This document shows, piece by piece, positions 10,209 through 28,383 of a stretch of 64,000 bases of DNA. How positions within the stretch are numbered: position 1 is the stretch's first letter; the number at the start of each line of letters is the position of its first letter. Source of the DNA: Amylostereum areolatum. Lineage: Eukaryota > Basidiomycota > Agaricomycetes > Russulales > Stereaceae. The notes under the pieces are model-generated. The model made no database searches. It was not told the origin of the DNA and saw only the letters and a list, made by a program, of their open reading frames with translations. Made by a program: the position numbers and the translations under genes. The stretch is taken from assembly GCA_012932865.1 (NCBI GenBank), contig SAXG01000036.1:186001-250000 (forward strand), written 5' to 3'.

Positions 10209-10758
10209 ATGCTCGCAAGCCTCTCGGAGTTATATGAAAACCTTCAGCGGGACGGACCTGTTTTGGATCTGGAGAAAGCCTTGGCGAGGCGAATCCAAGA
10301 TAGTGGAAGGCTGGTATGCGTCGGTGGATACCCTTACAATGGATTACATAATCGACTAAGCCTTGTAAACGACACGCGGAAAAAACTGAGGAACGCTTTT
10401 TCGCTGATGCCTACGTTGCCCAAACCGAGCCCAGACTCACCCTGTTCTTAGCCTTGCCCGCAGCGACGATAAAATGGGCACCTGGAGACTACGTGTTCTA
10501 CCACCAATCATTACACGAAGGGCCTCTCACGACAGCGTCATAAACCAGCTCCTCAATTTCAGTCTTCCCAAATCCCTCTGCGATATCGATGTATGCTATC
10601 AAATATCCTTGGCGAGATCATCCTCCTGACATCTCCGACAGCCTGTAGTATACGAGACGGAAAGCACACTCCACTTCTTCCTCACCAGTGTACAAGCGGC
10701 AAAGACCAGCGTAGTAATCGCCAACGACGACCCGTTCAAAATGAACCTCCGCCTTCCT
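10209..10758 (+). pseudogene. Gene Y, left copy, 5' part (interrupted by KDZ element)
   Basis: First exons of an unknown gene wh3se 3' part resumes at 18558. The ATG at 10209 opens MLASLSELYENLQRDG; one base shift is needed at about 10340-10395 to continue into FFADAYVAQTEPRLTLF and PAATIKWAPGDY. A plausible intron (GT after APGDY, AG before 10573) leads to SSQIPLRYR, another intron follows, and the exon containing TLHFFLTSVQAAKTSVV then DDPFKMNLRLP stops exactly at the transposon. After precise removal of the transposon the frame runs on as GLALLFDTYEQFAEEENIN. The right copy at 26898-28383 has this uninterrupted. No family recognised. With the frame shift and the 7.8-kb insertion it should be dead. 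Confidence 0.7.
10751..10758 (+). repeat. Left target-site duplication of the KDZ transposon
   Basis: GCCTTCCT, repeated at 18558-18565 on the other side of the element. The uninterrupted right copy of gene Y has a single GCCTTCCT (as AGGAAGGC at 28166-28173). One extra C before each copy makes 9 bp also possible. Confidence 0.85.
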
Positions 10759-10990
10759 CAAAACTTCGACACTGGAGCCAAGTAGTTCGGACCCGGTTCA
10801 GAACCGGTTCAGACCCAGTTCGGAACCCCTCCTTCAGCCCACCTCTGAACCTAGTTCCGAACTCTCCTCCTAATCACGCTTGTCACATTCCGTGACCAGT
10901 TCAGAGGTTCCGAACTCCTGCCCAAAATGAGATGGACAGTTCTAAACAGGTTCTGAACCAGTTCCGAACGTTTGAACTTCAGTTCTAACT
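10759..10990. repeat. Left terminal and subterminal repeats of the KDZ element
   Basis: The terminus CAAAACTTCGACACTGGAGC is followed by about 200 bp rich in GTTC(A/C/G)GAAC words, some perfectly palindromic (GGTTCAGAACC near 10795). The right end has the inverted equivalent. Such clusters often bind transposase; that role is inference. Confidence 0.7.
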
Positions 10991-11334
10991 AAGATTTGAG
11001 TGAGGAGCCAGCACGTGGTTCCTTCCCCCATCTCACGTGCCCGAAAGATAGTATGAACGCGACTTGAAAGCTTGAACGACTATCTACATCCCCGCTGTAT
11101 TCTCATGATCCCTCTACTACATAATTGAACTCATTGAACCTGGTGGCCTCGAGTCATAGTTACCACAAGTCCACCAGTGAATCCCTCTGCAACATTTTTG
11201 GCCACTTCGCAACATTGTAATGGTGTGGCCAAAGGCCTTTTGGGCCACAAGTTGAGCTGCACTCAGTCATATAAACGAACCCCCACCTACGATGGCAACC
11301 TCTCCCTCTCTGCGAGTCTCCGCTTCACCATACA

Positions 11335-13807
11335 ATGCAATCCGACGCCCCTCCGCAATCTTCAATATGCAGCAAGAGCGAGTGCTCTCAGCCTGTTGTC
11401 ACGTCCATGGCGACCGGCTATAACGATTCCGAGAATGCAGGCCGGTGGTATGACACGGTGTGTGCGCTCTAAACCTGCTATAGTGTTCTGTTGCTTATAC
11501 AGCCTATCTCAGTGCTCAAACAGTCATTTCACGTGGCGTGATGATTTAGAACGCCATGTTGACCCGCCTGCCCCTGGTGTGCGCTCGCAGTCACAGAAAC
11601 TAGAGGCGCCGTGCGATGGTCCTGGGTGTAACGACCGAGCACTCGGTAAGTCTGGGAAGAAGGGATCTTCCAGGCGGAAGCGACATCAAGGTTGCACATT
11701 CAAGTTCTGCGTAGACTGTTGCAAGGCTCACCAACGTTGCATTCGACAAGGTTGCCGTGTCAAAACGCACTCGGTGACCTTCACACCCAAGAAGCCTAAT
11801 CGGTTTTTGTCGACCATCACTCAACCTTTACCACCACTCCCTGCTCCCATCTTCTCGCCGACTCCTCCATCTGCATCTTTCAGCTCATATGCTGTCAACT
11901 CACGCCAACCCGGTGCTTTGCCACATTTACCCACCCCCATTCAAGCGCAAGAAGCTGCTCCAAACTTGCACGTGCACAGTCACGGTGGCCTTCCAGGTGC
12001 CGATGTTGATGAGTCCGAATGGTATGACCCCACCTCCTTCGACGAGTCCGTCAACTCAGATTACTTGACCTTGGCCAAGTCTCCTCTCCCCGACCCATCC
12101 CATCCCACAACTCTACCTCCTGATGCAGATTCCCAGCCACCCACTTCCCCTATTTCCGGTACTTCTTTCTCGCAAGACACGTCATTTGCTGGCACTAGTA
12201 CCACTGCCAATGATTTCGATTTTTCTGCCCTACTCTCATCCTGGGCCGAAGGCGACACCAACACGAAGATTCCATTCGACTTTGATGTCGATTTTCCACC
12301 ATTTGATTTCGGCTCGCACAACTTTGAGTTTGCAGACGAACTTCCTTCTTCAATCCATCCCCCCCTTCCTGTGCATACTGTGGACGAGTCCAGCGACCAC
12401 CTTGACCTCTTAACTCCCCTCCCCGGGCCCTCACTGGTCCTGACAGCTCCGGTTCCAACGTCGTCCGAACCCTTGATTCTCCCCTCTGCTAGCCCGCCGG
12501 TTTCACATGCCGATGACAAAATTTCCCACCCCAAGACCACTGCCAGCTCCAATTCGGCTGCTCTGTCTCTGACAACGACATCCGCAAAGTCGACGACTCA
12601 GACTTTAGCAGAGTTGCCGAAGCCAAAGCGATCCAACAAGCCTTCCAAGCCCAAGCCATGTACGACAGCGAGCACTTCCCTAGCCACTGCCAGCAGTACC
12701 ACTGGTGCTCCCGTACCCCGGCAACGCCCTCTACGTGAGGAGCACTACAATGTTCGTCAATCTGCAATTGAGGAGCATCAGTCATCAACGTCAATCATAT
12801 CCGAGTGTGAGGCTCGTGCGAAGGCTCGAAAGGAGTCAATTAACCTTCTGTACTTTCGGAAGGTATGTTTTTGATGTGTTATTATCCTCCTCAATTGGCT
12901 AACGAACCCCTAGGATGACACCGAACCTCAGTCCTTATCAATTGCATGCAAATACTTCCCCCACTTTTGCATGGACGACTGTTCTCCTGCAATCCGTAAG
13001 ATTCTCGGCATCGTAGAACCAGACTCTCTGTTCGAAAGGTACGATCCTCGTCGAGGCCAGTGGATCATCTGCGAGATCCGTACAACGGAGCTCATCACGA
13101 CTGGTCAAACCCTCATGTATCGGTCATTCGAGGCACGCACCGACCTACAATCCATGGCCCGTCACGAATCCATTCTCAAGCAGGCGACATCACCACAGAC
13201 CCCTTCGCGCAAGCGTCCCTTCTCCCAAATCATGGACACCATTTCTCCTGCTCAAGGTCGGTCACCGGTTCGCCCCCGCACCGATAATCATACACCAGCC
13301 ACTGCAGTCGCCTCTTTCTCTGAGGAGTCGTTCACCCCCGCGATCCCTTCCGACTATTCAGAGTCATCCACTCCCGCGATCCCCTCCGACTACTCCGAGT
13401 CGTCGATCCCACAATCTCCATCGGCTCTGTCGACGCCTTCCACTCCATGCCCGACTCCTCGGGCTGCCTCACCCCCACCAAACAACAACCATCTCGAGGA
13501 TCCTGATGCTGCCTTGCGCACGACACCCATGACACCTTGGTCTGAGTCAGGTTGGCCGCTGATGTACTTTCGTTTCATGGCGGAAGGGTTTCAAAAGTAC
13601 GAAGATCTGAAGGGTCTTAGCCATAAGGAACGGGTGGCTGCGGCCTTTCCAGGATACAAGGTTTCGAAGGCAGGGTGGAGTACCTACTACAGCCATGGGT
13701 GGAAGGTATCCTCGCCAGAGCTGCAAGACCAGTACGCCGAGCTCGCTGCCAGGTCGACAAAGATGGCTCTCTGGAAATCATTCTATGATGATGTGAGAGG
13801 GTTATGA
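11335..13807 (+). CDS. Cysteine-cluster protein, passenger in KDZ element
   Basis: About 790 residues after removing introns at 11460-11502 and 12863-12913. The ATG at 11335 gives MQSDAPPQSSICSKSECSQP; the frame then passes a Cys/His cluster (CDGPGC..., GCTFKFCVDCCKAHQRC, RQGCRVKTH) that looks like a zinc-binding unit, a long Pro/Ser/Asp-rich linker, a segment WIICEIRTTELITTGQTLMY, two PAIPSDYSES repeats (about 13338-13400), and a C-terminal aromatic-rich domain of some 85 residues (WPLMYFRFMAEGFQKYEDLK..., FPGYKVSKAGWSTYY), perhaps HMG-box-like. The stop is at 13805-13807. Similar Cys-cluster genes are multi-copy near transposons in basidiomycetes. Function unknown; nuclear DNA binding is a guess. 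Both reading frame and splice sites are intact. Confidence 0.7.
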
Positions 13808-14697
13808 TTACTTTCGACACTGCTGTTTTTTTCTCTAATTGATCTATATACATAATACAATGTTGCCTATCGAAACCGCGTCCACGTCTGTCTGATCCCG
13901 CCCGCCCGTGTCCGTCCCTAACCTACTCCCCGCCCCCGCTCGCCTTCTCATTCTCATTCCCACCCGCCCACCTGCTTGCCTTGCCTCGCAAACACCCCTA
14001 CCACAGCTCCTTGGCCGCTCTCGTCGCCATCCCCGTCCCCTGCACGCCCATCAGTGCAGCCTCCTGTCCCTCGCACGCGCGCATGCTCATGAAGTGCACG
14101 CCCCGAACGTGAGGTACACGTTCCCAACCTCGGCGCAAAAGTCAGTGCGAAGCTAGAGCAAAAGTCGGTGCGAAGCCAGAGGATGCAAGTAGGGTTGGAG
14201 TCGAGGAGGGAAGGGGAGGACCCACCACTGCTCATGGCCATCATCCTGGATCTACTCGGGACGCGCGCACGACAATGGGTATTCCGCAAGGTAACACATG
14301 GGCGCGATCACGAGGTTTCTGCCCGCCGAGTCGCTCGCAATGTCGCTCGATGTGAACCTGGGGGAGTGCACGAAGGGAGGCGTAGCCCGCGTGCGTGGCA
14401 GGGAACGTGGTCACGGGCTCCTGGAGCGCTGCTTTTGATAGGCGGTACTTGAGCGTCAAGGTGCGAGGTCTATTGAGCTACGCAGATGAAGAAACTCACC
14501 GAGGTAGTTGACAGGAGTCAGCCAACAAGTGGGTCTGCCAGAAAGAATGAGAAAGGGGGGAGACGTGGCTCAATGCATCTCGTCGCTGTTGCCGACGGTG
14601 AGCGCGCGTCGCCGGCGTCATTGGAATCTGTTTCCAATGTGTTGTGATTGGCTGACACAATTACGCAGCCAAGGCGTCACGACATGTCGACACCGTC
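13808..14697. other. Gap inside the KDZ element
   Basis: About 0.9 kb between the cysteine-cluster gene and the hairpin. It includes a pyrimidine-rich stretch (13890-14050) and a degenerate 23-bp direct repeat (AGCAAAAGTCGGTGCGAAGC-like, 14128-14182). I see no convincing coding sequence. Confidence 0.4.
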
Positions 14698-14809
14698 AAC
14701 AGCGAACACGGGCTTGGGGCATGCATCAACCAATCAGGTGCGAGGGGGAAACCCCTTTCCTCCTCGCACCTGATTGGCCGATGCATGCCCCAAGCCCGTG
14801 TTCGCTGTT
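14698..14809. repeat. Long inverted repeat (48-bp arms, 16-bp loop)
   Basis: The left arm 14698-14745 and right arm 14762-14809 are complementary at 46 of 48 positions, with a 16-nt spacer. Both arms contain ATGCAT and a CCAAT motif (CCAATCAGGTGCGAGG). It ends 13 bp before the ATG of the coiled-coil ORF. It could be a foldback/MITE-like insertion, a hairpin in the 5' leader or a regulatory palindrome. Confidence 0.9.
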
Positions 14810-14822
14810 CGTGACACCCCCC

Positions 14823-15886
14823 ATGCTCACCGAAGAACAGAATCCACCAACGCAACCCCGCGAAAGCCCCCCTCCACATCCACATCCACCTCCACCCACC
14901 TGCGCCCCCACCGATACCGCCAGCGTTCCCAATCCTTCACACGCGACAGGCTTCCGCAAACACACGCCTACCGCGTCCACCTCCACCCGGAGCAGCGTCA
15001 AGTGGGCGCGAACCCCGTCATCGTCATTGTCCCCCACGACCCGCCGCGCGTCCCAACGCCTTCAGGAACGACGCGACCGGGCTCTGGGACACCTGCCCGA
15101 CGTCCCAAGAAAACCTAGCAGACGACGGCCGCGGTTCGCGAGCGCACCGTACCTCCCAACGCCCCTGCGGCAGTCTCGCATCGCCTCCCCCACCCCGTCC
15201 TCCTCCTCCTCCTCCTCGTCCACATCGTCCTCCTCTAAACCCTTCCCCCATTTCTTCCCCGAGCCCGGAGCCAGAGCCCATGGTCTGCGATCCGTCCTTG
15301 TCCTCCGCCGCCCCTCCTGTGCCTGAGCAGGCACCTTTCGCGCTCACCGAGGCCCACGTGCGCACGCTCCAGAAGGACCTCGACGCGCTCCGGGCCTGTG
15401 AACGCGCGCTCGAGTCAGAGGTGGAGGAGTTGCGGGGTGATAGATGGGCGATGGCCGTGGACATGGAGGCGCTGCGCGAGCGGGGCGCAGCGGGGCAGGT
15501 GGCGCTGGACAGGTTGCGGGGGATGGTGGACGAGGTCGTGGCCCTGCGCACACTCAAGCGGCAGCGGACGGACGAGCGGCAGGTGCTGCAGGCCGAGCTC
15601 ACCAACATGAAGGCGAGGGAGCACGCGTGGACGGCGGAGTTGGCGGCGTTGCGGGCGCAGGTGTCGATATGACAGACGGCGCTCACCAATGCTGCGGAAA
15701 CGGTCAGATGAGCTCGACGCGCTCCGGGTGCTCGAGCAGCACCGGCTCAATGAGCGCAAGATGCTGCAGTACGAGCTCGACAACGTCAAAGCCGTCAAGC
15801 ACGCGTGGGCGACGGAGATGGCGGCGTTGCGCGCTCTCGATTCCTCTCCTCGAACCCCGCGGACTCGTCCTCAGTCCTTCAACTAA
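14823..15886 (+). CDS. Coiled-coil hypothetical protein (frame breaks), KDZ passenger
   Basis: The ATG at 14823 opens MLTEEQNPPTQPRESPPPHP, followed by a Pro/Ser-rich basic region and a serine run. One base shift in an AAA run near 15237 joins this to a clear coiled coil (15280-15672) with heptads such as LQKDLDALRACERALESEVE and AVDMEALRER. A second block (15689-15886) repeats part of it: ERKMLQYELDNVK matches ERQVLQAELTNMK, and AWATEMAALRAL matches AWTAELAALRAQ. Stop codons separate the two blocks, so the coding sequence is either spliced in a way I cannot resolve or broken. No enzyme motif; function unknown. Confidence 0.4.
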
Positions 15887-16009
15887 CCACCTTGCATTAT
15901 TTCTCCAGCTAATGCCTGTTGAAGCACCTTCACCAGATTGTGCATCCGACCCCAAGGCTCATCACGGTGGAGAGATAGATTACAATATATTATTTGACAG
16001 GTTCGTACA

Positions 16010-18265
16010 TCACTGTGTTGTAGCGTACGAAGGTACAATGTACGGTGCTTGTCCTTCGGAGCGTAGTCTCGACACAAGAATCTCGTTCCGCCGCTTTATC
16101 GTCTCATCGAGGAAGAAGTCAAATCGATATGCTAGCAACTCACGGACGATTGCCAGATACCCGTCAATCCAGACGTTGGTCTGCTCGGCAACTGATGAGT
16201 TAAAATACCAGTGACCGTTCTCATCGTGCAGCTCTGGAAACAATGCCGGATTGCAGTGCTTCTGGCAGAACTCGTCTGTCTCTTTGTGCTTTGATTTGAA
16301 GTGGAAGACGTCCACAGGGAGGATCATCCCTGCTGCTTCAAAAAAAGGATCCTTCTGTTTGATAACGTGCTCCTGAAATTGGCAGTTATTGTCGTAGAAC
16401 GCAGCCTCCGGCGTGTCCATGGGGTGGGCTCGGTAGACAGACTTGTAAAAATCCTGGTGGAGATGAAGGTCAATCAACAATCCAGTACAAGCTAGAGGAT
16501 ACGACAAGTTAGAGGGTACGGCATACCTTCACTCCCGATATGGCCTCTGCACCAAACATGGTTGCCCGTGCGGCGATCACTCCACAACAACACACGATGA
16601 GTTGCTCGTTGTGCGTGCGGCGCCTCCCAAACCTAGCGCGAAGCTTGCGATTGCCAGCGTCCGACTTCCGGTGATCAGAGGTGGAGCTGTTGGTGTCATC
16701 CTGGCTCGCCAGAAGCCCGAGGGAAACATCCAGCTCTTCGTCGTCATCGACATTGTCTGGCAATACTGCCATGTCAGAACTCGCACTGTGCGCGACGCCA
16801 TTTCGCTTGAGACGTTGTTGAAGCTGAAAGAACGCCTTTCCTCGCGCATCGCGGTACACTTCAAGAGCCATGTGGTTGGGATGGGTGCATGTGCGACGGC
16901 CGGGGCGGACAGGCTCAGTGCACGCGATGACAGCACAAAGTGACGATTCTGTTGCATGGTCTTCACAAAAATGGTGGCGATTGTTGATGAGCGGTTTGGT
17001 ACAGTTGTGCACGGCGCAGCATGGGTGTCCGATCGACACCCCGTCACTAACGACGGCTCGAAGGGAGCCTATGACGGGGAATCAAGTCAGCATTGAATAC
17101 ATGTGGTAGAGCTAATAAAGACGTACGAAGGCCAAGATGCCCCTCGCCCGTCGCACTCGGGATAAACCGTTCGCAAACCAAGCATGCATGCATCTTGTGC
17201 GGCTGACCAACCTCAATCATGCGTGCATTCCGTGCTTCCATGGCCTCCTGAAGCCATGGCTCATGATCTCCCTTGTCGGAGAGAGTAAGGCGAGAACCTT
17301 GCTCCGCGTGGTCGCGCAACAATGCGTTGAGGGCAAAAACCCGCCAAGCTTGCTCGGAGCTGAAGGTGAAAGTGTTTGGCCAGTCGTCAGGCTGGGCATG
17401 CTTCGGTTTGGAGAGCGCTGCATTGTAAATTTTGGCACAGTTTTGCCCAGAGACCCTGTGTGATATGTGTGTTGTGAGGAATGATAAAATGAGAGAAAGA
17501 GAGAGGGTGGACTCACCATGCAAATAACGTGCACATGGTGAACAGCTCACATAGTTCGGTCTCAATAAATGCATGTTTCTCGAAGTGGATTGCGTTCGGT
17601 ACCCCACCATAGTAGCACCTTATACCACTGACAACATAATAATCCGGGTGGTAACGGATATTGCAGCCTAGAAAAGGATAGAAGATGATTGAACAGATAT
17701 AGTGAAGAGTGGTCAGCAACTTACGAGTGCAGAGCAGAGAGGTCGTGTATGCTGCACGAGCACCATGATCACGGGTGTAGTACACAACCGGATAGCGTGA
17801 ACCTCGTTTGAGGAGGGAGGTGCACTTGTCGCAGGTGTAGACGGGGGGATAAAACATGTGATCACCTTAACGGGGGATCAGATAGGAATGAGGCCAGTCG
17901 ACGAACATGGACGTACTGATGAGGTCCATCCCTCGTGTATCTGAGCCCATCCTCCCAAATTTCTGAAAGTCTTCCGCCTCCTTCAGCGAGAGTTTGATTG
18001 GACCATCCAGCCAGACCAATTCCTTCAGCACCACCCAATACCCGCTAACAGTTTCTATGTTTGGTGCAGAGATCATGTTACGAAAGAAGTCGAGGAGATA
18101 GCGGGGAAGAAAAGGAGGGGGGCGCTCTGCGACGCCATAGGTGTGAAGGAGGATCTCGCGCTTCAGTCGGCGGGCATAGCGGACAAAACGCTCCACATCG
18201 TGGAATGTGAAGTCAACTCCGCCTACGAGGCAGAGAGCCTGACCGATCGCGTTGAAACTTGCCAT
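16010..18265 (-). CDS. KDZ transposase with CxC5 and CxC6 cysteine clusters
   Basis: Transposase of the surrounding element. The ATG at 18265 starts MASFNAIGQALC. In order: a helical N-terminal region; CxC5 (YPPVYTCDKC..., C-NIRYHPDYYV, CYYGGVPNAIHFEKHAFIE; about 17860-17540); QNCAKIYNAAL; a helical linker; CxC6 (GHPCCAVHNC..., HHFCEDH, CAVIACTEPV, CTHPNH; about 17040-16870); an acidic-serine linker; and the KDZ catalytic part with FYDNNC (about 16380-16400), PVDVFHFKSKH, FCQKHCNPA and NSSVAEQTN (about 16175-16205), which carry the acidic residues expected of the RNase H fold. At least five 45-70 bp introns give one continuous frame to the stop at 16010-16012. No nonsense or frame break noticed, so it may be active. 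A TATA-like site is at 18348-18353. Confidence 0.85.
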
Positions 18266-18347
18266 TAAGACAAGACGGAAGGGATCTAGGGGATAGGGGG
18301 AACTTGGGGGGACAGGAAGAGGGAACGGAAGGCCCTGGCATGGCAGC

Positions 18348-18353
18348 TTTATA
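18348..18353 (-). promoter_or_regulatory. TATA box of the KDZ transposase gene
   Basis: Minus-strand TATAAA (GGGTATAAAGCTGCC context), 83 bp upstream of the transposase ATG. Confidence 0.5.
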
Positions 18354-18469
18354 CCCTCAGACAGTCCTCACAAAAAAAAACAATGTTGTAAGGACAATGA
18401 GACCGAAAACTGGGAGCGGCCATGACATTGTTTCTACGCGTGACATCCTTGTCACACAGAGGGTCTGAA

Positions 18470-18557
18470 CTTTGGTTCTGAGCCGGGGTCGGAACTTAGG
18501 TCGGAACCTGGTTCCGAACCTGGTTCCGAACTTTTGGGCTCTACCTTCGAAGTCCTC
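18470..18557. repeat. Right terminal and subterminal repeats of the KDZ element
   Basis: Contains repeated GGAACCTGGTTCCGAAC-type words and ends CTACCTTCGAAGTCCTC. Its reverse complement aligns with the left end: ACTTCGA, GAGCC and AGTTCGGA in the same order. Confidence 0.7.
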
Positions 18558-18565
18558 GCCTTCCT
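18558..18565 (+). repeat. Right target-site duplication of the KDZ transposon
   Basis: GCCTTCCT, identical to 10751-10758. Confidence 0.85.
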
Positions 18566-19791
18566 TGCCTTGCGCTTTTGTTCGATACCTACGAGCAATT
18601 CGCAGAGGAGGAAAACATCAATGAGGCCAGCCAATTGCATCCCTTCGCCGCTCTGTTGACTATGGCTTTCCGGCGCGGAAAACAGCCGGAATATTATCCC
18701 TGCCGCATCGAGTAAGTCGAAATTTGATTGTCTCCTGAGCATCCATTCCGATTACTTTCGCACCCAGACGTGAATCAGAGATACGCCTTACAGCAGCCGG
18801 TCCTGGCTTCCCGATGCGAGCACAGCTTGACTTTGCATTCATCTACGACAACCCTTCACTCCGGCACCCCTCATTCTGGCCGCATATAACGAGGAGTACT
18901 CTGGACGACCCCAAAGGTCTATTGTTGACAACGCTCTGGCAGGCGAAGACAAACGTCGTGCCCTGTATCTCGTTGCTGCTTTTCCCCGGCGAGGGAAAGC
19001 GAAACCACCACAGCTACAGCAAAAACCAACTCATGTGTGATCTGTCTACCTGCCTCCACCAGCAGGAGAGTCTCGGCCTTACTGTTGTCGAGAACGTCGG
19101 CTTCGTAGCTTCGAACGGAGTGGTCCAGATATACGGCATTGAGGAAGACAGACGAGGGGATGGCTATCTACGAGTTCCTGCACTACCCTTCTGCGACCTT
19201 CAACCTACGGCAGCCGCTGGAATTCCTCCGATTCTAATCGCTTCTCTGCAAGCTCTCCGACTACTTGGACACCCACATCTTGGAGGCTTTCCGAAAGTTA
19301 ACGGTCCAAAAAATCATGTGTACTCTGAAGGAAAATCCGGGTCGTGGCGAGCCGATAATCCTCTATCGGGCAATATTCGAAGGTCGAGCGGCGTCGGGGG
19401 CGGAGGTGGTGGTGGCGGTGAGGGTGGCGATGGCGACAATCCAAGAGGTCAAGACAAGTCGGGACGCGTAGGTCAGAGAGACGGCGGTTCCAACTCTCGC
19501 AAGCGTCACAGTTCTATGGATCCTCCGAATCCACCAGCATCCAAGAAACAGAAAGCGCAGTCCGATGGGGGCACCGATGAGGTAGACGATTCCTCGCCTG
19601 TTCCCGAGCTCGATGACCCGCCATACGACACAGGCCCACATGACTTCTCTCAGACGCCGGAGTCCCACTGGGACGAGCAGCTCCAGCTTCACGCCGGAGA
19701 CGTACGCTGGAAGGACGACCCACCCAGGCAGCCTTCTCTCCCGTTGTCTATCGATAACCTCAAGCCCACACCGATTGGGAAGGCTCGATAG
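18566..19791 (+). pseudogene. Gene Y, left copy, 3' part
   Basis: Continuation of gene Y after the transposon: GLALLFDTYEQFAEEENIN, a 56-bp intron (18712-18767), then RESEIRLTAAGPGFPMRAQL and a globular region with FWPHITRSTLDDPKG, LLLFPGEGKRNHH and LPFCDLQPTAAAGIP. The C-terminal third is disordered: an eight-glycine run, a basic SRKRH motif and SKKQK that may be a nuclear signal, then an acidic stretch. One base is missing near 19765 relative to the right copy, changing the last residues and stopping early at 19791. The ATG at 18662 could in principle serve as a new start after the transposon. Family not recognised. Confidence 0.7.
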
Positions 19792-20044
19792 ACGTGTTGA
19801 GCCGCACCGGCATGTCGATGTCCTCGAAACCGTGACGATGTCGGGGGCTAGTAGCGTGATCCTCTCTTATTGCGTCGACGTTTGGAATGTACATCGTGGT
19901 TATTGGAATAAATGCCGGGTGCCGCCTAAGGAGAGTGAGGGGGAAGAACAACGCCAGAAGAAATTCACTGTCGGCTTTTATTTAGTCCACACTCGGTCAA
20001 GATTCCTCAAAGCAAGTGAGATAACTTTGATCGCACGCGATACA

Positions 20045-26616: not shown

Positions 26617-28383
26617 AGCCGGTATGCGGCGCCGACATGTCGGTTTTCTTGGTCGCATACATTCTTTTGTTTGTGTATCTCGTTAGTTCCGCAGACCTGC
26701 GACCAAAGTTATCTCACTTGCTTTGAGGAATCTTAACCGAGTGTGGACCAAATAAAAGCCGACAGTGAATCTCTTCTGGCGTTGTTCTTCCCCCTCACTC
26801 TCCTTAGGAGACACCCGGCATTTATTTCAATAACCACGATGTACATTCCGAACGTCGACGCAACAAGAGAGGATCACGCTACTAGCCCCCGACATCGTCA
26901 CGGTTTCGAGGACATCGACATGCCGGTGCGGCTCAACACGTCTATCGAGCCTTCCCAATCGGTGTGGGCTTTGAGGTTATCGATAGACAACGGGAGAGAA
27001 GGCTGCCTGGGTGGGTCGTCCTTCCAGCGTACGTCTCCGGCGTGAAGCTGGAGCTGCTCGTCCCAGTGGGACTCCGGCGTCTGAGAGAAGTCATGTGGGC
27101 CTGTGTCGTATGGCGGGTCATCGAGCTCGGGAACAGGCGAGGAATCGTCTACCTCATCGGTGCCCCCATCGGACTGCGCTTTCTGTTTCTTGGATGCTGG
27201 TGGATTCGGAGGATCCATAGAACTGTGACGCTTGCGAGAGTTGGAACCGCCGTCTCTCTGACCTACGCGTCCCGACTTGTCTTGACCTCTTGGATTGTCG
27301 CCATCGCCACCCTCACCGCCACCACCACCTCCGCCCCCGACGCCGCTCGACCTTCGAATATTGCCCGATAGAGGATTATCGGCTCGCCACGACCCGGATT
27401 TTCCTTCAGAGTACACATGATTTTTTGGACCGTTAACTTTCGGAAAGCCTCCAAGATGTGGGTGTCCAAGTAGTCGGAGAGCTTGCAGAGAAGCGATTAG
27501 AATCGGAGGAATTCCAGCGGCTGCCGTAGGTTGAAGGTCGCAGAAGGGTAGTGCAGGAACTCGTAGATAGCCATCCCCTCGTCTGTCTTCCTCAATGCCG
27601 TATATCTGGACCACTCCGTTCGAAGCTACGAAGCCGACGTTCTCGACAACAGTAAGGCCGAGACTCTCCTGCTGGTGGAGGCAGGTAGACAGATCACACA
27701 TGAGTTGGTTTTTGCTGTAGCTGTGGTGGTTTCGCTTTCCCTCGCCGGGGAAAAGCAGCAACGAGATACAGGGCACGACGTTTGTCTTCGCCTGCCAGAG
27801 CGTTGTCAACAATAGACCTTTGGGGTCGTCCAGAGTACTCCTCGTTATATGCGGCCAGAATGAGGGGTGCCGGAGTGAAGGGTTGTCGTAGATGAATGCA
27901 AAGTCAAGCTGTGCTCGCATCGGGAAGCCAGGACCGGCTGCTGTAAGGCGTATCTCTGATTCACGTCTGGGTGCGAAAGTAATCGGAATGGATGCTCAGG
28001 AGACAATGAAATTTCGATTTACTCGATGCGGCAGCGATAATATTCTAGCTGTTTTCCGCGCCGGAAAGCCATAGTCAACAGAGGGACGAAGGAATGCAAT
28101 TGGTTGGCCTCACTGGCGTTTGTCTTTGCGAATTGCTCGTAGGTATCGAACAAATTCGCAAGGCCAGGAAGGCGGAGGTTCATTTTGAACGGGTCGTCGT
28201 TGGCGATTACTACGCTGGTCTTCGCCGCTTGTACACTGGTGAGGAAGAAGTGGAGTGTGCTTTCCGTCTCGTATTCTACAGGCTGTCGGAGACGTCAGGG
28301 GGATGATCTCGACAAGGATATTTGATAGCGTACGTCGATAACGCAGAGGGATTTGGGAAGACTGAAATTGAGGAGCTCGTGTA
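25722..28383. repeat. Right arm of the inverted segmental duplication
   Basis: Reverse complement of 18558-20380 plus about 10545-10758. It keeps about 0.67 kb of ABC sequence (26030-26700) missing from the left arm and lacks the KDZ element, preserving the empty site at 28166-28173. At about 28383 homology ends and deaminase sequence begins. Confidence 0.85.
26898..28383 (-). pseudogene. Gene Y, right copy (5'-truncated, no transposon)
   Basis: Reads from the SSQIPLRYR exon (about 28355-28380) through the TLHFFLTSVQAAKTSVV exon, across the uninterrupted insertion site (AGGAAGGC at 28166-28173), the FDTYEQFA segment, an intron near 27966-28021, and then a long frame from about 27965 to the stop at 26898. 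Its C-terminus (DWEGSIDVLSRTGMSMSSKP) is longer than in the left copy because it lacks the one-base deletion. The first exon, MLASLSELYENLQRDG in the left copy, is missing, replaced by deaminase sequence. It could still give a truncated protein from the ATG at 28072. Function unknown. Confidence 0.65.

Follow-up and report, generated by a model that had tools for sequence, protein, structure and literature searches.

The 64,000-nucleotide stretch of Amylostereum areolatum DNA analysed here (the window; GenBank assembly GCA_012932865.1, contig SAXG01000036.1, positions 186,001 to 250,000; C113:186001-250000 in the 57.1-Mb, 182-contig genome that was searched) carries at 10759..18557 a 7,799-bp segment that is best read as a complete DNA transposon. 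Two near-identical copies exist elsewhere in the genome, and the element encodes a protein with CxC5 and CxC6 zinc clusters that is predicted to be its transposase, a divergent DDE (Asp-Asp-Glu) enzyme of KDZ type. We place the probability of this reading at roughly 0.8. Exact ends, target-site duplication, gene and short non-autonomous partners are thereby defined for a CxC5/CxC6 element, and the three near-identical full copies make its transposition directly testable.

Element ends, copies and insertion site

The octamer GCCTTCCT stands on the plus strand directly outside both element ends, at 10751..10758 and 18558..18565, and the element itself begins and finishes with CAAA..CCTC. Imperfect terminal inverted repeats occupy 10759..10779 on the plus strand (CAAAACTTCGACACTGGAGCC) and 18537..18557 on the minus strand (reading inward, GAGGACTTCGAAGGTAGAGCC); the first four bases of the two repeats, CAAA and GAGG, differ in every full copy and also in the related insertions of which both ends were read. 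Since the octamer occurs seven times in the window against 2.25 expected, and is thus not rare in itself, the case for an insertion rests on its position. A C precedes both octamers, so that the window by itself would permit a duplication of 9 bp; this length was dropped, as the ninth base matches in only three of 11 insertions (the window, C98-A and L014). The 8-bp duplication is settled because other copies have equal length, equal ends and 8-bp duplications of their own.

Whole-genome searches with the two element ends (380 bp from the left, 290 bp from the right), from which all repeat counts are lower bounds, returned at least two further full copies, both on contig C98 (151054-158852, plus strand, and 159033-166831, minus strand; C98-A and C98-B). 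Each is exactly 7,799 bp long, aligns to the window copy without gaps and is flanked by its own duplication, GACAGGCC and GAAAATGG. The window copy differs from the two at 31 and 30 bases; a single base separates the C98 copies from each other. The sequence-only reading of the window had proposed these end positions, this length, the termini and a duplication of 8 bp, all of which hold in view of the identical ends of the C98 copies, and the genome search with the element ends that it called for found the other full copies ending at the same positions. Its further suggestion of a currently mobile family is borne out as regards recent movement, which is strongly supported by two copies one base apart in 7,799, but not as regards current mobility. 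The C98 copies (L048 and L049, within C98:150501-167400) lie tail-to-tail with 180 bp between them, both duplications included in the 180 bp; the pair resembles the tail-to-tail CxC5/CxC6 inserts described in Pleurotus (PMC7641404) and hints at local, oriented transposition. A fourth insertion, on C17, was considered and dropped: the start of that contig holds the window's own insertion site with scattered indels (6.5 kb aligned, left flank included, at 99.6% identity with 5 mismatches and 21 gap positions), and on this alignment the piece is an allele or a duplicate contig end of the window site.

An uninterrupted counterpart of the interrupted gene, here called gene Y, lies in the same window. 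As had been claimed, a lone GCCTTCCT occupies 28166..28173 (minus strand) in an inverted copy of gene Y, and the joined flanks of the insertion (554 bp) align across the junction at 94% identity. At least ten gene-Y loci were found, of which L038 is the window itself and L044, L045 and L047 fall outside the comparison; the junction is uninterrupted in five of the six loci compared, namely the inverted copy and four more paralogues (87, 73, 69 and 67% identity), and the sixth matches only beyond it. Because the inverted copy and the four paralogues all run through the junction, the insertion is most simply the derived state, and because the gene copies are 94% identical over the joined flank, the empty site is taken to be a paralogue, not an allele. 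The reading frame is open across the empty junction, as the earlier reading had it, but the peptide then given, GLALLFDTYEQ, mixes both copies: the empty copy reads LPGLANLFDTYEQ and the right flank of the insertion LPCLALLFDTYEQ.

It is very improbable that the uninterrupted site at 28166 arose by excision without a footprint, or by faulty assembly, and is hence no evidence of insertion. A mismatch-free stretch of about 1.1 kb shared by the inverted gene-Y copies could trouble an assembler; yet the arms are only 84-95% identical in the first 200 bp right of the junction, which argues that they are separate copies, four other paralogues (67-87%) are uninterrupted at the same point, and two unrelated insertion sites carry duplications of their own. 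The mismatch-free stretch itself, 18765-19864 against about 26870-27970, contains one gap, and its sharp edge near the insertion would be consistent with either gene conversion or a recent copy event between the inverted arms.

The same ends recur in diverged and shortened relatives. Two long diverged elements are flanked by perfect 8-bp duplications (C124, GAAATGTA; C107, GCTTTTTG), as are six short insertions of 535-807 bp (GTGGAAAC, CGGACGTC, AGATTACC, GGTGCATT, GAACTTTT and AATCGGGG), the first of which occurs at three places with common flanks; a 344-bp relative with both ends read (L012) has no 8-bp duplication. Altogether, a perfect 8-bp duplication surrounds 11 of the 12 distinct insertions, full, long diverged and short, for which both ends were read. 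The left end starts with CAAAACTTCGA in all 12, and the right end, read inward, with GAGGACTTCGA in 11, C107 being one base off (GAGGGCTTCGA). G is the first base in 8/11 duplications, a possible target preference. The count covers neither the left ends on C95 and C10 (one common flank) nor C95:2157761 nor C111/C137, where the second end is missing or unread. Several of the insertions on C136, C127, C95, C10, C111 and C137 are found two or three times with the same adjacent flanking sequence, so that segmental duplicates, or both haplotypes, are probably represented in the assembly.

A further CxC5/CxC6 group in the genome comprises 12 matches of equal score with a 231-residue open frame. The four copies compared (L057-L060, on C34, C56, C120 and C106) have the left end CAGAAAGTTAAAC in common; the right end was not located, and two copies tested showed no 8-bp duplication. 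This group neither supports nor opposes a length of 8 bp for other CxC5/CxC6 elements.

The CxC5/CxC6 protein as predicted transposase

Splice prediction and homologues place a putative transposase gene of six predicted exons at 16010..18265 on the minus strand (18265-17917, 17865-17725, 17667-17517, 17455-17127, 17068-16527 and 16453-16010), with predicted GT..AG introns of 51-73 bases and a product of 651 residues. A CxC5 zinc-cluster region (residues 117-227; 17416..17917, from the last base of exon 1 to the start of exon 4; PF18718, E 2.4e-32) is followed by a CxC6 zinc cluster within the predicted catalytic core (residues 330-393; 16860..17051; PF18721, E 2.7e-25). The predicted catalytic residues are Asp 332, Asp 525 and Glu 594, with codons at 17043..17045, 16391..16393 and 16184..16186, all on the minus strand. 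The intact spliced frame noted earlier proves to be open in all three full copies, the window gene differing from the C98 genes by eight base changes and five amino-acid changes, and the best protein relative, from Amylostereum chailletii, is 76% identical over the full length.

Affiliation with KDZ enzymes is indicated at several levels. Both cysteine clusters belong to the KDZ-associated CxC family; such clusters were reportedly described by Iyer et al. in 2014. An AlphaFold2 model of a homologue predicts an integrase-like, RNase H-like core, in which the CxC6 insert is placed after the strand carrying the first Asp. The predicted Asp-Asp-Glu set aligns, in KDZ motif order, with that of canonical CxC2-KDZ transposases (PF18803 + PF18758); hhalign also pairs the catalytic positions, and the score between CxC5/CxC6 and KDZ profiles is attained by none of 100 permuted profiles. 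The two kinds of protein are alike in predicted strand and helix order and in the positions of Asp, Asp, Glu and His, and they differ in that the CxC2-KDZ transposases have CxC2 in place of CxC5 N-terminally, a core without CxC6 and a longer C-terminal helical part, and are matched by the Pfam KDZ model. Because the model fold and the Asp-Asp-Glu set line up with those of CxC2-KDZ transposases, the CxC5/CxC6 protein is most likely the transposase itself, on a divergent KDZ branch.

Other comparisons gave less. A Pfam scan of the 651-residue protein gave CxC5 and CxC6 only and no KDZ (PF18758), scans of single exons gave no KDZ either, and PF18758 matched just one of 45 homologues, at E 0.18, the homologue set being remote from that model. 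Moreover, the fold matches of the KDZ control model lie close to the tool's stated background, which makes the main reading slightly less probable. A Foldseek search of the homologue model against the PDB returned no match at E <= 0.001, global-mode hhalign yielded no useful alignment, and VIA-align of the Foldseek candidates was informative for the CxC5/CxC6 model, less so for the KDZ control. The KDZ catalytic region announced by the sequence-only reading thus stands as a predicted fold with aligned catalytic positions, not as a Pfam family match.

A different DDE superfamily that acquired KDZ-associated zinc clusters is an unlikely source of the protein. hAT- and Mutator-like transposons give duplications of 8-9 bp, the best solved-structure match of the homologue model (VIA-align of Foldseek candidates) is the ISCth4 transposase, which we take to belong to the IS256 family, and sequence similarity to KDZ is weak. 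Set against these points are the failure of permuted profiles to reach the observed score and the agreement with the KDZ control model in element order, pre-core helices, the YDxxC motif, the FHxxxxH/FHxxGH region and the position of the Glu, all of which favour a KDZ-type enzyme.

It is equally doubtful that the protein is an accessory DNA-binding factor of an element that depends for its movement on a retrotransposon or on a canonical KDZ transposase encoded elsewhere in the genome. Such a role would suit the lack of a Pfam KDZ call, the abundance of canonical KDZ in the genome (155 exon-level matches) and the view of the Pleurotus authors, who saw no KDZ transposon nearby and proposed a link to Copia (PMC7641404). 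Against it, the protein has its own predicted integrase-like fold and conserved Asp-Asp-Glu, only one of 38 CxC6 matches lies less than 10 kb from a KDZ match (126 of the 155 KDZ matches entered this count), and Zisupton-type elements usually have duplications of 8 bp (PMC12730594). Among ten chosen open frames scanned with Pfam, of which the element contains eight, no reverse transcriptase was detected, no dedicated search for long terminal repeats or reverse transcriptase having been made. In the same count, 21 of 27 TET/JBP matches lie within 10.5 kb of a canonical KDZ match.

If the CxC5/CxC6 protein is the transposase, it would most likely act by cut-and-paste transposition, using an RNase H-like core with Asp332, Asp525 and Glu594 (window numbering) as the predicted catalytic set. 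It would bind subterminal arrays of GTTCNGAAC, excise the element and join it to target DNA by cuts staggered by 8 bp, the gaps then being filled by repair. The short relatives (535-807 bp), too small for the 651-residue gene, may be mobilised in trans by proteins of the CxC5/CxC6 family. The copies probably became CpG-methylated after landing.

Subterminal arrays, candidate further genes and CpG transitions

The candidate transposase-binding sites lie just inside the inverted repeats. The left subterminal array (10785..10969) contains six exact copies of GTTCNGAAC and nine with at most one mismatch, and the right array (18462..18531) two and six, respectively. All eight exact occurrences in the window are near the two element ends; with one mismatch allowed, the element contains 17, of which 15 are subterminal, and the rest of the window 22.

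An accessory gene with a cysteine-rich N-terminal part is probably made up of two open stretches on the plus strand, 11138-12874 and 12914-13807 (region 11138..13807). Its only homologue at E <= 0.001 comes from A. chailletii. This homologue and the best transposase relative are each listed on a contig of 8,487, and because both listed contigs measure the same, the two A. chailletii genes probably share one element. In the C98 copies, residue 5 of the first accessory stretch is a stop codon; a candidate start codon follows farther downstream, near 11335. The accessory frames drew no KDZ match from Pfam, and no Pfam match of the accessory gene exceeded a cut-off. In addition, a putative coding frame at 14815..15672 (plus strand) has weak coiled-coil matches under the curated cut-offs, and a palindrome inside the element (14698..14809; arms of 54 bp, loop of 4 nt) is kept in all three full copies.

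Most of the transitions that separate the window copy from the C98 copies fall at CpG (25/30 against C98-A and 24/29 against C98-B), an excess over the 25% of C and G positions that belong to CpG (p 3.7e-11 and 1.2e-10, respectively). The ratio of observed to expected CpG is 0.92 in the element versus 1.11 in the rest of the window, a mild depletion. The concentration of transitions at CpG is the pattern expected from deamination of methylated CpG and suggests past methylation.

Comparison with known systems

The closest described counterpart is the 6,792-bp insert with a 739-residue CxC5/CxC6 frame that disrupted MSH4 in sporeless Pleurotus ostreatus (PMC7641404). Like the window element, it disrupts a gene, is multicopy and carries a CxC5/CxC6 frame, and some Pleurotus copies are tail-to-tail; compared by description, not by DNA, it differs in that the account in PMC7641404, as far as consulted, gives neither target duplication nor inverted termini. 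The same authors reported no KDZ transposon near CxC5/CxC6 frames and proposed the Copia link. A CxC5/CxC6 protein of P. ostreatus PC15, not established as the MSH4 insert's own frame, shares 44% identity with the window protein along 99% of the latter's length and has the conserved motifs. If our reading of the window is right, the frame in the MSH4 insert is likely to be the missing transposase. More broadly, we consider it reasonably probable that the CxC5/CxC6 proteins of Agaricomycetes constitute a self-sufficient KDZ branch with an in-core zinc cluster and 8-bp duplications, and that the sporeless-mushroom insertion is theirs and not a Copia by-product. For the insertion responsible for the sporeless trait of commercial oyster mushrooms, this is an interpretation that can be tested; furthermore, predicted catalytic residues in a protein missed by the Pfam KDZ model imply that annotation relying on that model would undercount KDZ-type transposons.

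Open-licence literature on fungal CxC5/CxC6 amounted, in the texts located, to PMC7641404 and one later paper repeating the Copia statement; in the portions consulted, it gave no duplication or terminal repeats for any CxC5/CxC6 element, and the consulted parts of PMC12062965 and PMC5718144 contained nothing on the ends of such elements.

Among better-known KDZ systems, KDZ1-KDZ3 of Cryptococcus neoformans, which jump into a reporter gene, make 8-bp duplications (4-8 bp for KDZ2 and KDZ3) and have terminal inverted repeats (PMC12810828), as the window element does. Zisupton and Dileera likewise have 8-bp duplications, and Zisupton shares the terminal inverted repeats (PMC12730594); the fungal Zisupton/Dileera families described there carry a TET/JBP gene, whereas in this genome no TET/JBP match lies within 10 kb of any of the 38 CxC6 matches. 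Kyakuja families, which have in common with the window element the KDZ group and Agaricomycete hosts, show 7-bp duplications, 5'-CA..TG-3' ends, no inverted repeats and a TET/JBP gene (PMC12730594), unlike the 8 bp, CAAA..CCTC ends and inverted repeats found here. Judged by duplication length and inverted ends, the window element thus fits Zisupton and Cryptococcus KDZ1-3, not Kyakuja.

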